From positions 1 to 64,000 of the forward strand of contig NCGD01000012.1 of the NCBI GenBank assembly GCA_002281535.1: 64,000 bases of DNA, given 5' to 3'. Numbering within the stretch: position 1 is the stretch's first letter; the number at the start of each line of letters is the position of its first letter. This DNA comes from Sphingomonas sp. 28-63-12. Its GTDB lineage: Bacteria > Pseudomonadota > Alphaproteobacteria > Sphingomonadales > Sphingomonadaceae. The translations under genes were made by a program, and so were the position numbers. Under the pieces are notes generated by a model. That model worked only from the letters and a program-made list of their open reading frames with translations. It did no database searches and was not told where the DNA came from. Of this stretch, positions 7,260 to 44,554 are shown piece by piece.

Positions 7260-7263
7260 TGTT

Positions 7264-7395
7264 CCTCTCCCATCGGGAGAGGAAGGGAGGAGCGAAGCGA
7301 CGGAAAGGTGAGGGTGATACCGCAGGCGCGCTCGCCCTTACCCTTCCCACTCGACTGCGTCGAGCGGGGCCCTTCCCTCTCCCGATGGGAGAGGG
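7264..7395. repeat. Palindromic repeat pair, CTCTCCC family, between E1 genes
   Basis: Two hairpins in inverted orientation bound this element: CCTCTCCC-ATC-GGGAGAGG at 7264-7282 and CCCTCTCCC-GAT-GGGAGAGGG at 7375-7395. Each is followed inward by a related sequence ending GGTGAGGG or GGTAAGGG. The same family recurs at 27161-27259 and inside ileS at 42796-42921. It fills most of the 154-bp gap in an otherwise tight operon. No ORF inside is convincing. Confidence 0.85.
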
Positions 7396-24279: not shown

Positions 24280-24310
24280 TCACCCCCCCCCTTCGGGGGA
24301 GGGACTTTTC
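24280..24310. terminator. C-rich/G-rich hairpin between convergent genes
   Basis: CCCCC (24287-24291), TTC, GGGGG (24295-24299) form a short hairpin, followed on the plus strand by GACTTTTCC. It sits between two convergent stop codons and could end transcription from either side. The stem is short and the T-run weak. Confidence 0.4.
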
Positions 24311-27160: not shown

Positions 27161-27259
27161 CCCTCTCCCCCTCGGGGAGAGGGCTGGGGTGAGGGGCCGC
27201 CAAGCATTGCTGCGCCCGTTACCGCCCCTCACCCAACCCTCTCCCCAAAGGGAAGAGGG
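27161..27259. repeat. Palindromic repeat pair, CTCTCCC family
   Basis: CCCTCTCCCC-CTC-GGGGAGAGGG (27161-27183) and CCCTCTCCCC-AAA-GGGAAGAGGG (27237-27259) are inverted relative to each other, with GGGTGAGGGG sequence just inside. It is the same family as at 7264-7395 and inside ileS. Confidence 0.8.
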
Positions 27260-40837: not shown

Positions 40838-41342
40838 TCTCCACTGAAACAGTCGCCGCCGGCTTGTCGCGCACCAGGATCGCGCGCACCAGCAACACCA
40901 ATACCCCTATCGTAATCGCCGCATCGGCGAGATTGAAGACCAAAAACGGGCTCCACTCGCCAAAGTGCAGATCGGCATAATCGACCACATAGCCCAGCCG
41001 GACTCGATCGAGAATATTGCCGATCGCGCCGCCCAGCACCAGCCCCAGTCCCAGCTGGTCCTGCCGGTTGGGCTCGCGCAGCATCCAGATCAGCACGCCG
41101 GCGGCAATCACCCCGGTCAGGGCGACCAGCCCCCAGCGCCCGGCATCGCTCGAGGCATTAAGCAGCCCCAGCGACACGCCGATATTGGCAACGAAGCGCA
41201 CCCTGAAAATCGGCAGCAGGTCGATCGTCCGGCCGGCCAGCGTATCGAGCCCGAGCGGGCCGGTGACGATGAACTTCAGCAGCTGATCGAGCATCAGCAC
41301 GATGACAGCCGCTATCAGTCCAACGATCGGGAACCGGTTCAT
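40824..41342 (-). CDS. lspA: Lipoprotein signal peptidase II
   Basis: A 172-residue inner-membrane aspartic protease with four membrane helices that cleaves prolipoproteins. NIGVSLGL, GGAIGNILDRVRLGYVVDY (catalytic Asp121) and FNLADAAI (Asp140) are the conserved boxes. The start MNRFPIVG at 41342 overlaps the ileS stop (ATGA). The ribF-ileS-lspA order is the common proteobacterial arrangement. Confidence 0.95.
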   Translation of the reverse strand: MNRFPIVGLIAAVIVLMLDQLLKFIVTGPLGLDTLAGRTIDLLPIFRVRFVANIGVSLGLLNASSDAGRWGLVALTGVIAAGVLIWMLREPNRQDQLGLGLVLGGAIGNILDRVRLGYVVDYADLHFGEWSPFLVFNLADAAITIGVLVLLVRAILVRDKPAATVSVENGNA

Positions 41343-44300
41343 GTCACCACCTCTGCGCATCGATCGCACAATGCCCCGTCCTGCACCACCTCGGGCAAAT
41401 GCCGCCAGCAGCGACCGCATTTGGCAAAATCGGTGCGCAGCACGGACACGCTATCGCCCTTCGTCACTTTCGCCACGATGAACACTTCGGCGAGTGCGGC
41501 CACCGGCAGCGGCAGGCTGGGCACCGTCACTTCGGCCTCCAGGCTTGAACGCACGATCTTCTCGCGGCGCAGCGGCTCGATCGCCTCGGTCACCTGCACC
41601 CGCAAGCTGCGGACATCGGCCCAATTGGTGCCCAGCATCGAATCGCCCGGCTGCGGCGGCAATTCCGGCCATTCGAGCAAATGGACAGAGCCGTCCTCGC
41701 TCGGGAAGCGCGTCTGCCAGATTTCCTCGGCGGTGAACGCCAGCACCGGCGCTGCATAGCGGACCAGCGCGTGGAACAATGTGTCCATCACCGTCCGTGC
41801 GGCGCGGCGCTTGGTCGATGTCGGCGCCTCACAATAAAGGCAATCCTTGCGGATATCGAAGTAAAAGGCCGACAGATCCTCATTGGCGAAATCGCTCAGC
41901 AGCCGGACATAGCTGTTGAAATCATAGTCGTTGACGGCCGTTTTCAGCTTGGCATCCATGTCGGCCAGCAAGAACAGCACATAGCGCTCCAGCTCGGGCA
42001 TGTCCTTGACCGGCAGCCGTTCGGCCTCGTCAAACCCCTCCAGCGCGCCGAGCAGATAGCGGAATGTGTTGCGCAGCTTGCGATACTGGTCGGAAACCCC
42101 GTTCAGGATTTCCTTGCCGATCCGGTGATCCTCGGTGAAATCTACCGTCAGCGCCCACAGCCGCAGGATATCGGCGCCGCTGTCCTTCATCAGATCGATC
42201 GGGTTGATCGTGTTGCCCAGGCTCTTGGACATTTTCATGCCCTTTTGGTCCATCGTGAAGCCATGGGTCAGCACCGCCTTGTACGGCGCATGGCCGCGCG
42301 TGCCGCAGCTTTCGAGCAGCGACGACTGGAACCAGCCACGATGTTGGTCCGATCCTTCCAGATACAGGTCGGCGGGCGGCCCCTGATAGCCGGCGGGGCG
42401 CAGCAGATCGGGCCATTTGCCCGATTCGAGCACGAACGCATGGGTGCAGCCGCTGTCGAACCACACATCGAGGATGTCGGCGACGCGCTCGTAATCAGCG
42501 GCGTCATAGGCCGGGCCAAGCAGCGCCGGCGCGGCCTCGTCGGTCCAGGCATCAACGCCCTGCGCACTGATCGCCGCGATGATCCGCGCGTTGACCGCCG
42601 GGTCGCAGAGATACTGCCCGCTCCTGCGATCGACGAACAAGGTGATCGGCACGCCCCAGGCGCGCTGGCGGGAGAGGACCCAGTCAGGGCGCCCCGAAAC
42701 CATCGCGGTGATGCGGTTCTGCCCCTTGGCCGGCACCCAGCGCGTCGCTTCGATCGCGGCGAGGGCACGGTTCCGAAGGGTGTCGCCCTCTTCGCCCTCG
42801 CCCATCGGGAGAGGGGCAAGCTGCAAAGCACCGCGGGGTGAGGGCGCGTGCGCAACGCCAGCGATATCGCCCTCACCCGTCCGCGGCTTCGCCGCTCCCT
42901 CCCTCTCCCGTTGGGAGAGGGAAAGATCCATCGGCACGAACCATTGCGGTGTGCAGCGGAAGATCACCTTGGCCTTGGACCGCCAGCTATGCGGATAGCT
43001 GTGCTTGAAATCATCGCTCGCCGCGAGCAGCCCGCCGCTCGCGCGCAGGTCCGAACAGATCGGGCCATCGGCGCTCACGAACTTCTTGTTGATCACCGAG
43101 CCCTGCCCGCCAAGCCACGCCCAATCGGCGCGGTACATCCCCGCCGCATCGACCGCGAAGACGGGCTCGATGCCATGCGCCTTGCACAGCAGGAAATCGT
43201 CCTCGCCATGATCAGGCGCCATGTGGACGAGCCCTGTGCCCGCATCGGTGGTGACGAAATCGCCCGGCAGGAACGGGCGGGGCCGCAGGAAGAATTCGGC
43301 GAGGGGGGAGTTTACATCAACACTAAGCCCCTCCCCTTCAGGGGAGGGGTTGGGGTGGGGGCTGTCCGCAGGCGCGTCACCAGCGATGAAAGATGCCGTT
43401 GGTGAGACAGCTCCATCCCCAAGCGCCGCGCCAATTGAAGAGGCCCCACCCCCAACCCCTCCCCTGGAGGGGAGGGGCTTGAAGAAGTTGGCCATTGGGT
43501 GGCGGGCGGTGGCGCCTTCGAGCAGCGCCCCGTCAAACGTCGCCTCAATGGTCGGACCAGTCCAGTCGAATGTGGCATCCGGCGCAACGGCAAGGACCCT
43601 CGCCTCCAATTGACGCTGGTATCGCTTAAACGTCGCATCGACCAGGCTCTCAGCCACGATCCAGCCGATATCAGGTTCATGGATGATACCGCGCGCAGCG
43701 GAAAGCTGATCGTCCGGACCCTGAATATTGCAGGCGAAGCCGACGGCCGCATAACGGATGTCTCTTCCGTAGGCGAGCGCCTGATTTACGGGAATGGTCC
43801 AAGGCGTCGTCGTCCAGATGATAGCCGCGTACCGCGCATGGTGTTTACCTGTCAGGTCCAACCAATCGATCTTGCTGTCGACAATCTCGAACGCCACGTC
43901 GATCTGCGTCGACACGATATCCTCATATTCGACTTCGGCCTCGGCGAGCGCGGTCTTTTCGACCGGGGACCACATCACCGGCTTCGCCCCGCGATACAGC
44001 TGGCCGCCTTCCGCGAACTTCATCAGCTCGGTGACGATCGTCGCCTCGGCCTGGAAATCCATCGTCAGATAGGGATGGTCCCAGTCGCCATTGATGCCCA
44101 GCCGCTTCAATTGCTCGCGCTGCGTATTCACCCAGTGCTGCGCATAGGCGCGGCACTCGGCGCGGAATTCCGCCGCGGGCACCTCGTCCTTGTTGCGCTT
44201 CTTGGCGCGATATTGCTCCTCGACCTTCCACTCGATCGGCAGGCCGTGGCAGTCCCAGCCGGGGACATAGGGCGCATCCTTGCCGAGCAGGCTCTGCGTC

Positions 44301-44554
44301 CGGCAGACCGTGTCCTTCAGGATATGGTTGAGCGCATGGCCGATATGCATGTCGCCATTGGCATAGGGCGGGCCGTCATGCAGGATGAACTTCTCGCGGC
44401 CACGGCGGGCTTCACGCAGCTTTTCATACAGGCCGATCGACTGCCAATGCGCCAAAATGCCCGGTTCCTTCTGCGGAAGGCCGGCTTTCATGGGGAACGC
44501 GGTCTTCGGCAGGAAGACGGTGTCTTTATAATCGGGCGCTGTGGTGTCAGTCAT
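41339..44554 (-). CDS. ileS: Isoleucyl-tRNA synthetase with two in-frame repeat insertions
   Basis: A 1071-residue class I synthetase, longer than the roughly 940-970 usual for this group. HIGH (in MHIGHALN), KMSKS (MKMSKSLGN), the CP1 editing core (TTDAGTGLVHMAPDHGEDDF) and a C-terminal four-Cys zinc site (CGRCWRHLP...LCDRC) are all intact. The extra length is residues 359-422 (inserted before RPRPFLPGDF of the editing domain) and 544-590 (after CTPQWFVPMD in the catalytic domain). Both are encoded by paired palindromic repeats. ATG at 44554 starts MTDTTAPDYKDT; the ATGA overlap couples it to lspA. It should be functional because flanking sequence is conserved and the frame is kept. Confidence 0.95.
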   Translation of the reverse strand: MTDTTAPDYKDTVFLPKTAFPMKAGLPQKEPGILAHWQSIGLYEKLREARRGREKFILHDGPPYANGDMHIGHALNHILKDTVCRTQSLLGKDAPYVPGWDCHGLPIEWKVEEQYRAKKRNKDEVPAAEFRAECRAYAQHWVNTQREQLKRLGINGDWDHPYLTMDFQAEATIVTELMKFAEGGQLYRGAKPVMWSPVEKTALAEAEVEYEDIVSTQIDVAFEIVDSKIDWLDLTGKHHARYAAIIWTTTPWTIPVNQALAYGRDIRYAAVGFACNIQGPDDQLSAARGIIHEPDIGWIVAESLVDATFKRYQRQLEARVLAVAPDATFDWTGPTIEATFDGALLEGATARHPMANFFKPLPSRGGVGGGASSIGAALGDGAVSPTASFIAGDAPADSPHPNPSPEGEGLSVDVNSPLAEFFLRPRPFLPGDFVTTDAGTGLVHMAPDHGEDDFLLCKAHGIEPVFAVDAAGMYRADWAWLGGQGSVINKKFVSADGPICSDLRASGGLLAASDDFKHSYPHSWRSKAKVIFRCTPQWFVPMDLSLSQREREGAAKPRTGEGDIAGVAHAPSPRGALQLAPLPMGEGEEGDTLRNRALAAIEATRWVPAKGQNRITAMVSGRPDWVLSRQRAWGVPITLFVDRRSGQYLCDPAVNARIIAAISAQGVDAWTDEAAPALLGPAYDAADYERVADILDVWFDSGCTHAFVLESGKWPDLLRPAGYQGPPADLYLEGSDQHRGWFQSSLLESCGTRGHAPYKAVLTHGFTMDQKGMKMSKSLGNTINPIDLMKDSGADILRLWALTVDFTEDHRIGKEILNGVSDQYRKLRNTFRYLLGALEGFDEAERLPVKDMPELERYVLFLLADMDAKLKTAVNDYDFNSYVRLLSDFANEDLSAFYFDIRKDCLYCEAPTSTKRRAARTVMDTLFHALVRYAAPVLAFTAEEIWQTRFPSEDGSVHLLEWPELPPQPGDSMLGTNWADVRSLRVQVTEAIEPLRREKIVRSSLEAEVTVPSLPLPVAALAEVFIVAKVTKGDSVSVLRTDFAKCGRCWRHLPEVVQDGALCDRCAEVVT
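42796..42921. repeat. CTCTCCC-family palindromic element inside ileS
   Basis: CCTCGCCC-ATC-GGGAGAGG (42796-42814) and CCCTCTCCC-GTT-GGGAGAGGG (42901-42921) bound the element in inverted orientation; GGTGAGGG-like sequences lie just inside. The length of 126 bp is divisible by three. The in-frame insertion as a whole is about 42785-42925 (47 codons) and contributes REREGAAKPRTGEGD and similar sequence to IleRS. Confidence 0.85.
43325..43480. repeat. CCCCTCCCC-family palindromic element inside ileS
   Basis: CCCCTCCCCT-TC-AGGGGAGGGG (43328-43349) and CCCCTCCCCT-GG-AGGGGAGGGG (43456-43477) are inverted copies, each followed inward by TTGGGGTGGGG or its complement. 156 bp, divisible by three. The whole in-frame insertion runs 43289-43480 (64 codons). 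Flanking codons MANFF and LAEFF are similar (GCCAACTTCTTC and GCCGAATTCTTC), possibly a degraded target duplication. Confidence 0.85.

Follow-up and report, generated by a model that had tools for sequence, protein, structure and literature searches.

The ileS gene and its two inserts

The window, i.e. the whole 64,000-nucleotide stretch of Sphingomonas sp. 28-63-12 DNA that was analysed, contains ileS, the gene for isoleucyl-tRNA synthetase (IleRS), on the minus strand at 41339..44554. The ORF begins with an ATG at 44554 and encodes 1071 amino acids, with the final sense codon ending at 41342 and the stop codon next. It matches the NCBIfam family TIGR00392 (ileS) at 756.9 bits, above the cut-off of 621.4, in agreement with the original prediction that normal IleRS sequence flanks a palindromic insertion. 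A second, uninterrupted ileS, which that prediction had named as evidence against itself, was not found in the genome (assembly 94.8% complete).

Insert 1 (43289..43480, minus strand) comprises residues 359-422 and directly precedes the IleRS editing core TTDAGTGLVHMAPDHGED. It is an in-frame REP doublet of a kind designated type A, together with flanking codons. The predicted core of inverted palindromic repeats is present: two arms of 38 nt, 92% complementary, are separated by an 80-nt spacer (43363..43442, minus strand). In the coding sense, the 5' arm (43443..43480, minus strand) contains a palindrome at 43456-43477 and the 3' arm (43325..43362, minus strand) contains one at 43328-43349. 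These two 22-bp palindromes lie in inverted orientation, and the frame is open throughout. The HPM..FVTT segment is 79 amino acids long, compared with a loop of 18-19 amino acids, where readable, in same-genus genes that have no insert there. The insert therefore adds roughly 61 codons (183 bp) net, near the 192 bp originally proposed.

Insert 2 (42782..42925, minus strand; residues 544-591) is a second doublet in the same ileS, and had not been recognized in the original prediction. This in-frame REP doublet, designated type B, lies between WFVPMD and TLRNRAL, at the position called site 2 below (site 1 being that of insert 1). Its palindromes (42795-42815 and 42901-42921) are of a type, CCCTCTCCC..GGGAGAGGG, that differs from that of insert 1 and that occurs, with at most two mismatches, at 18 sites in the genome and at 0 in the control. 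Elsewhere in the window, a further type B palindrome pair is found at 7263-7395, where the spanning ORFs are 146-161 amino acids long, and this pair matches IleRS insert 2 by tblastn. A single weak B-type palindrome is located at 27161-27183.

An AlphaFold model of the IleRS, based on 46 aligned sequences, is of moderate confidence (mean pLDDT 77.7, pTM 0.67), and its best structural match in the PDB is the Priestia megaterium IleRS (TM 0.61 by query length and 0.70 by target length). The predicted fold is IleRS-like, with both inserts modelled as low-confidence stretches. The two longest stretches with pLDDT <50 (360-411 and 550-589) lie inside inserts 1 and 2, and shorter ones occur at 1-13, 194-211, 234-237, 519-533, 1045-1060 and 1064-1071; the low values arise partly from the small number of aligned sequences across the inserts. 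The in-frame insertion itself is observed directly, and an exposed-loop position is suggested by these low-confidence stretches.

Type A repeats in the genome and in relatives

The expectation that the core of insert 1 has other copies in the genome was borne out. A BLAST search with insert 1 returned 36 matches, counting self and cross-arm matches, and the type A palindrome with at most two mismatches was detected at 23 sites, against 0 in the reversed control. With at most three mismatches, the window contains three sites where 0.01 would be expected, namely the two of insert 1 and a single weak A-type palindrome with three mismatches at 24283-24304. Four relatives were also counted, with type A unit sites (reversed control in brackets) numbering 102 (16) in G022, 15 (1) in G019, 32 (12) in G031 and 64 (3) in G051.

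In its usual form, seen in this genome and two relatives, type A consists of two palindromes with G-rich tails facing inward and a spacer between them. The palindrome-to-palindrome length has a mode of 102 bp, in 26 of 86 listed pairs, some of which are gaps between array neighbours; after a tail filter, 75 doublets of this one form remain, drawn from this genome, G022 and G031. Insert 1 measures 150 bp because its spacer is longer than usual. The insert 1 segments of loci L029 and L144 are 17 codons shorter, and from this comparison of sequences the extra stretch was probably added later, in the branch leading to the present genome and G019. Type A ends are most commonly AAG-CCCC...GGGG-CT, the flanks vary from copy to copy, and no GTAG or CGTC tag was seen by eye among the listed copies.

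Some type A copies have larger arrangements. At four loci of G022 (L316, L321, L302 and L299), doublets are arrayed in tandem, 3-5 copies at a time, with similar intervening sequence. Near the 5' end of ileS, a pair of type A units 393 bp apart is present in both G022 (C44:232342-232755) and G031 (C2:224073-224486), and a 397-bp pair on contig C53 of the present genome (1250-1668) resembles it.

REPINs are inverted REP doublets that are present in many copies and lack their own transposase, with RAYT as their presumed mobiliser. Type A is likewise a dispersed, multi-copy palindromic unit found in inverted pairs with a short spacer. It differs in that no Y1 transposase (Y1_Tnp, PF01797), which we take to be the family of IS200 TnpA and RAYT, was found either in this genome (94.8% complete) or in G022, which has the most type A sites among the four relatives. 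PF01797 is present in only 4 of 61 same-genus genomes and absent from the other 57, the present one included; no RAYT or IS200 element that could act as resident mobiliser was thus found in this genome. REPINs (PMC3116915, PMC8049555) are among the closest known systems.

The sequences flanking insert 1 had also been proposed to be a worn target duplication. This part of the prediction did not hold: at 40 single-element loci, the mean score for flanking direct repeats over the 28 nt adjoining each element end was 4.38, compared with 4.40 for mismatched flanks, and the left copy of the proposed duplication, judged by eye, lies farther out, 24 bp outside the element end. The target-site duplication that marks MITEs is thus not seen at these loci.

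Distribution of inserts among ileS genes

The ileS gene was aligned with 63 other ileS genes, 58 of them from the same genus, a set that does not include the ileS genes of G012 and G013. Insert 1 is shared by two of these 58 (L030 and L029) and by the named MAG locus L144. It is missing in the remaining 56; a different repeat occupies the position in one of them, leaving 55 of 58 with no element at site 1. Insert 1 is not conserved as a protein segment across close relatives, and the reading that it is a shared conserved domain, which the original prediction had set against its own, is not upheld. Other repeat types occupy site 1 at three loci: L043 has a CGTC-tagged element, L189 has a similar one (RHAGEGQHP..GLRQHD) and L171 has a type-B-like element. 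At a third site, upstream in ileS, a CGTC-tagged element is found in L052; L040 encodes a similar peptide there, and L075 what resembles a remnant of it. The elements appear to have spread, because they are both present and absent at orthologous sites.

Site 2 could be scored for inverted repeats in 58 of 59 same-genus ileS genes, the present one included, since it is not readable in L041. A strong inverted repeat (score >=13) is present in 22 of the 58, with scores of 15-29, values never reached in 1160 control windows taken downstream in the same genes, where the largest score was 11. These 22 comprise seven type A, seven type B, four type C, two type D and two CGTC elements; types A, B and C are alike in layout, and D and CGTC differ. 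The D and CGTC repeats are dispersed in their own genomes, with 40 matches in G050 and 77 in G010, respectively, counting self matches and both orientations. That such inserts are ordinary lineage-specific low-complexity linkers with chance palindromes is barely credible. In relatives without a scored repeat, the linker at site 2 does vary, from 7 to 68 amino acids (2 amino acids in four of five outgroups), and some of these linkers may be worn elements. However, the gap between the strong scores and the control maximum argues against chance, as does the presence of the same DNA at other loci, and for insert 1 the dispersed copies refute this account.

Among named loci, a score >=13 at site 2 was obtained for 14 of 62 readable ones, including loci from Sphingomonas, Erythrobacter and Sphingorhabdus. 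The named loci comprise the best 80 out of at least 590 matches, nine lacking an ORF and nine a readable site 2, and include at least one duplicate (L206 and L046 come from one and the same contig). One of the isolates with a site 2 element is S. echinoides ATCC 14820 (L145). Such isolates, together with the orthologous inserts in separately assembled genomes, make an assembly artefact very improbable, and removal of the segment from the RNA or protein is given the same low standing, with no Rfam match at the gathering score between 40000 and 46000; nothing was found in favour of either.

The site 2 types were mapped on a tree quickly built from the IleRS core, which has 15 open forks and from which L041 and L049 were left out; types were set by eye where the regular expression gave two letters. 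On this tree, 17 changes of type are required, where the minimum possible is 5 and shuffled labels give 21.2, with a value as low as 17 in 0 of 200 shuffles. The types are clustered on the tree, and part of the site 2 pattern is therefore inheritance. Strongly supported branches alone still force six changes for B, four for A, three for C, two for D and two for CGTC. Some closely related genes differ at this position. L036 (type B) and L040 (type C) have different site 2 elements in flanking sequence that is 97% and 93% identical over 300 nt on each side; L047 (C), L050 (B) and L055 (A) are likewise close, and L045 (A) is close to L060 and L064, which have no site 2 element. In L074 (G029), an extra palindromic stretch lies within an apparent C element, so that one insertion seems to be nested in another inside a single essential gene.

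Inserts in other genes

Type A copies also lie in coding sequence outside ileS. In the present genome, 6 of 13 type A clusters are coding (ileS, valS, glyS, putA, hpnB and hpnG), so that only about half lie outside genes. In G022, where 9 of 52 are coding, type A is mostly outside genes, as are REPs; the nine comprise ileS twice, valS, glyS, squalene-hopene cyclase, a biotin carboxylase of the propionyl-CoA-carboxylase type, RNase R, MutL and MetH. The G022 figure combines 6 of 49 scored clusters with ileS twice and valS (loci L029 and L259). A cluster was called coding if both flanks scored >0.13, a cut-off chosen by eye in a gap between scores, with three weak palindromes of this genome left out (on C36, on C49 and at window position 24283); the codon model was trained on the genome's own ileS, valS, glyS, putA and uvrA and is circular for those genes, where family matches carry the claim. 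The hpnG match, at 166.9, is below the NCBIfam cut-off of 187.1. Classification in G031 covered 12 stretches besides ileS, with the G019 and G051 copies left out, and a MutL copy of type A was found there in the same place as in G022.

tRNA synthetases hold three of the six coding clusters in the present genome and four of the nine in G022. This share is partly a product of shared descent, as the glyS and ileS site 1 inserts are orthologous between the two genomes. Overall, in-frame palindromic inserts also occur in ValRS, GlyRS-beta, UvrA, PutA, MutL and others. Three hopanoid-pathway genes contain in-frame type A palindromes, namely hpnB and hpnG in the present genome (L135 and L127, contig C8) and squalene-hopene cyclase in G022 (L289).

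ValRS has a hotspot of its own between TMGWP and RYPND, which measures 7-9 residues when empty and 40-46 when filled. The best 30 matches, rather than a random draw, were examined for each of ValRS and GlyRS; in ValRS, 7 of the 22 genes with a readable site score >=13, and four more filled sites (L259, L263, L266 and L281) are visible in the alignment. The ValRS site bears on whether the hotspots reflect a preference for insertion into particular DNA at those codons, as opposed to a protein loop that tolerates inserts. In favour of a DNA-level preference, site 2 of ileS in the aligned close groups follows a well-conserved DNA stretch, and the elements start within a few codons of that stretch. 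However, different palindromes (A/B/C, D and CGTC) use site 2, the ValRS hotspot behaves alike in another sequence context and type A flanks vary, and such a preference is judged to be improbable, slightly more so than the selected hairpin considered below.

Conservation of the palindromes and predicted hairpins

Insert 1 can be compared directly with its counterpart in G019. The 38-nt ends are identical at 75 of 76 nt, compared with 67 of 80 in the spacer. Within the insert, pN is 0.074 and pS 0.125 (only 10 and 6 changes), and in the 110 codons of flank downstream pN is 0.027 and pS 0.307, giving a pN/pS of about 0.6 in the insert against 0.09 in the flank, from few changes. The whole-insert nucleotide identity (0.913) is close to that of the flank (0.906). 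The original prediction had offered a mobile repeat that was either domesticated or tolerated; these values fit tolerance better than domestication. Simple decay would have left the palindrome ends less conserved than they are, and either homogenisation or selection is needed in addition. We read the insert 1 peptide as being under loose selection, with something additionally holding the palindromes at consensus, which judging from these comparisons could be gene conversion or selection on a hairpin.

Similar conservation is seen in other genes. Among orthologous inserts, the palindromes are identical at 42-44 of 44 positions in glyS and at 43 of 44 in mutL, although these copies were picked via the palindrome pattern, which favours intact palindromes. 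In the flanks, at positions where both genes encode the same amino acid, the same codon is used in glyS at 33 of 52 (present genome and G022, upstream) and 45 of 58 (present genome and G019, downstream), and the share of same codons for same amino acids in the mutL flanks is 30 of 52 and 33 of 49; some flank comparisons were out of register and were excluded. These are hairpins in coding DNA that seem intact while the flanking synonymous sites drift.

The mRNA is predicted to form strong hairpins at both inserts, of -116 kcal/mol for insert 1 (z -6.9) and -98 kcal/mol for insert 2 (z -7.3), relative to shuffles. It is possible, although unlikely, that the hairpin itself is selected, either in the mRNA, for ribosome slowing or decay, or in the DNA, for a role in the nucleoid, which would make the ileS element functional. 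The predicted folds, the near-identity of the insert 1 ends beside a diverged spacer and a flank with a pS of 0.307, and the retention of the glyS and mutL palindromes while flank codons vary are all consistent with such selection. The choice of the glyS and mutL copies by pattern weakens the last of these, and the whole-insert identity, so like that of the flank, argues the other way. The hairpin is also not needed in most ileS genes, given that 55 of 58 have no site 1 element and 36 of 58 score <13 at site 2. In addition, close IleRS genes carry different elements, and gene conversion from dispersed copies would also hold the arms at consensus.

Proposed origin of the inserts and relation to known repeats

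The repeats are dispersed, lie in frame, are present or absent at orthologous sites and occur as several types at one protein position. They are probably REPIN-like elements whose in-frame presence is tolerated by flexible IleRS loops. Insert 1 would be one copy of a dispersed element, short and non-autonomous, and would have entered ileS in an ancestor common to a few relatives. The enzyme would still have worked because the added length kept the frame, the repeat was free of stop codons in that frame and the site was a loop, and the insert would be translated as a flexible loop rich in proline, glycine and glutamate. The frames of the element are not specially open (56%, compared with 63% in control windows), and special openness was rejected. 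The same filter, i.e. the right frame and a harmless loop, may have let different repeats settle repeatedly in IleRS, ValRS and other long enzymes, with repeat types replacing one another at those loops. Strict mobility, translation, flexibility and neutrality of insert 1 are what we infer under this explanation. Points that weigh against it are the lack of a Y1 transposase in this genome to move the element, the lack of a transposition footprint at the 40 loci scored for target duplication, the partly inherited pattern at site 2, the strong conservation of the palindrome ends, the moderate confidence of the structural model and the ordinary openness of the element's frames.

A broader possibility, more doubtful than tolerance itself, is that the class I synthetase loops of the Sphingomonadales are safe harbours in which unrelated repeats arrive, replace one another and nest, mostly without a resident Y1 transposase, and in which gene conversion or selection holds the arms at consensus. 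Its probability is reduced by the pattern-based choice of the glyS and mutL copies. If true, such harbours would represent selfish DNA kept in an essential ORF over speciation times. With different repeats at the same positions in related species, ileS resembles a site where selfish DNA has landed repeatedly, and the relatives offer a naturally occurring series of insertions into the loops of an essential enzyme.

Inserts of this kind are already known, as RPE-7 in the IleRS of Rickettsia and as REPs in sphingomonad tRNA synthetases, and, of the papers listed, two seemed to bear on repeat inserts in synthetases (PMC3733652, PMC3767692). RPEs are palindromic repeats of about 70-190 bp found in coding genes, including those for IleRS, PheRS-beta and repair enzymes; RPE-7, of 144 bp, lies in isoleucyl-tRNA synthetase, and RPEs are solvent-exposed in the three proteins modelled (passages of PMC3767692). 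The likeness to the Sphingomonas inserts is one of behaviour, and Rickettsia belongs to another order. The same passages offer hotspots as one possibility, leaving open whether the sites attract repeats of differing origins or hold ancient insertions that have since diverged (PMC3767692). In contrast to that account, the IleRS of Sphingomonas has different types at one protein position with turnover, and a hotspot of different origins is directly seen there, with unrelated repeats at one position and close enzymes differing. The literature searched yielded no description of a single IleRS or ValRS site that is shared by several unrelated repeats.

For GTAG/CGTC REPs, dimers have been described inside ORFs, including those of tRNA synthetases, which the cited text leaves unnamed, in X. 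oryzae, E. litoralis and S. alaskensis, and also in uvrA; different REPs occupy about the same recB site in two Xanthomonas (passages of PMC3733652). Type A, without such a tag, differs from these REPs, and the CGTC-tagged dimers in relatives at ileS site 1 (L043) and site 3 (L052) are like them. In the present genome, uvrA (L141:1-2451, contig C17) contains an in-frame type B doublet, which separates the UvrA interaction domain from the DNA-binding domain.
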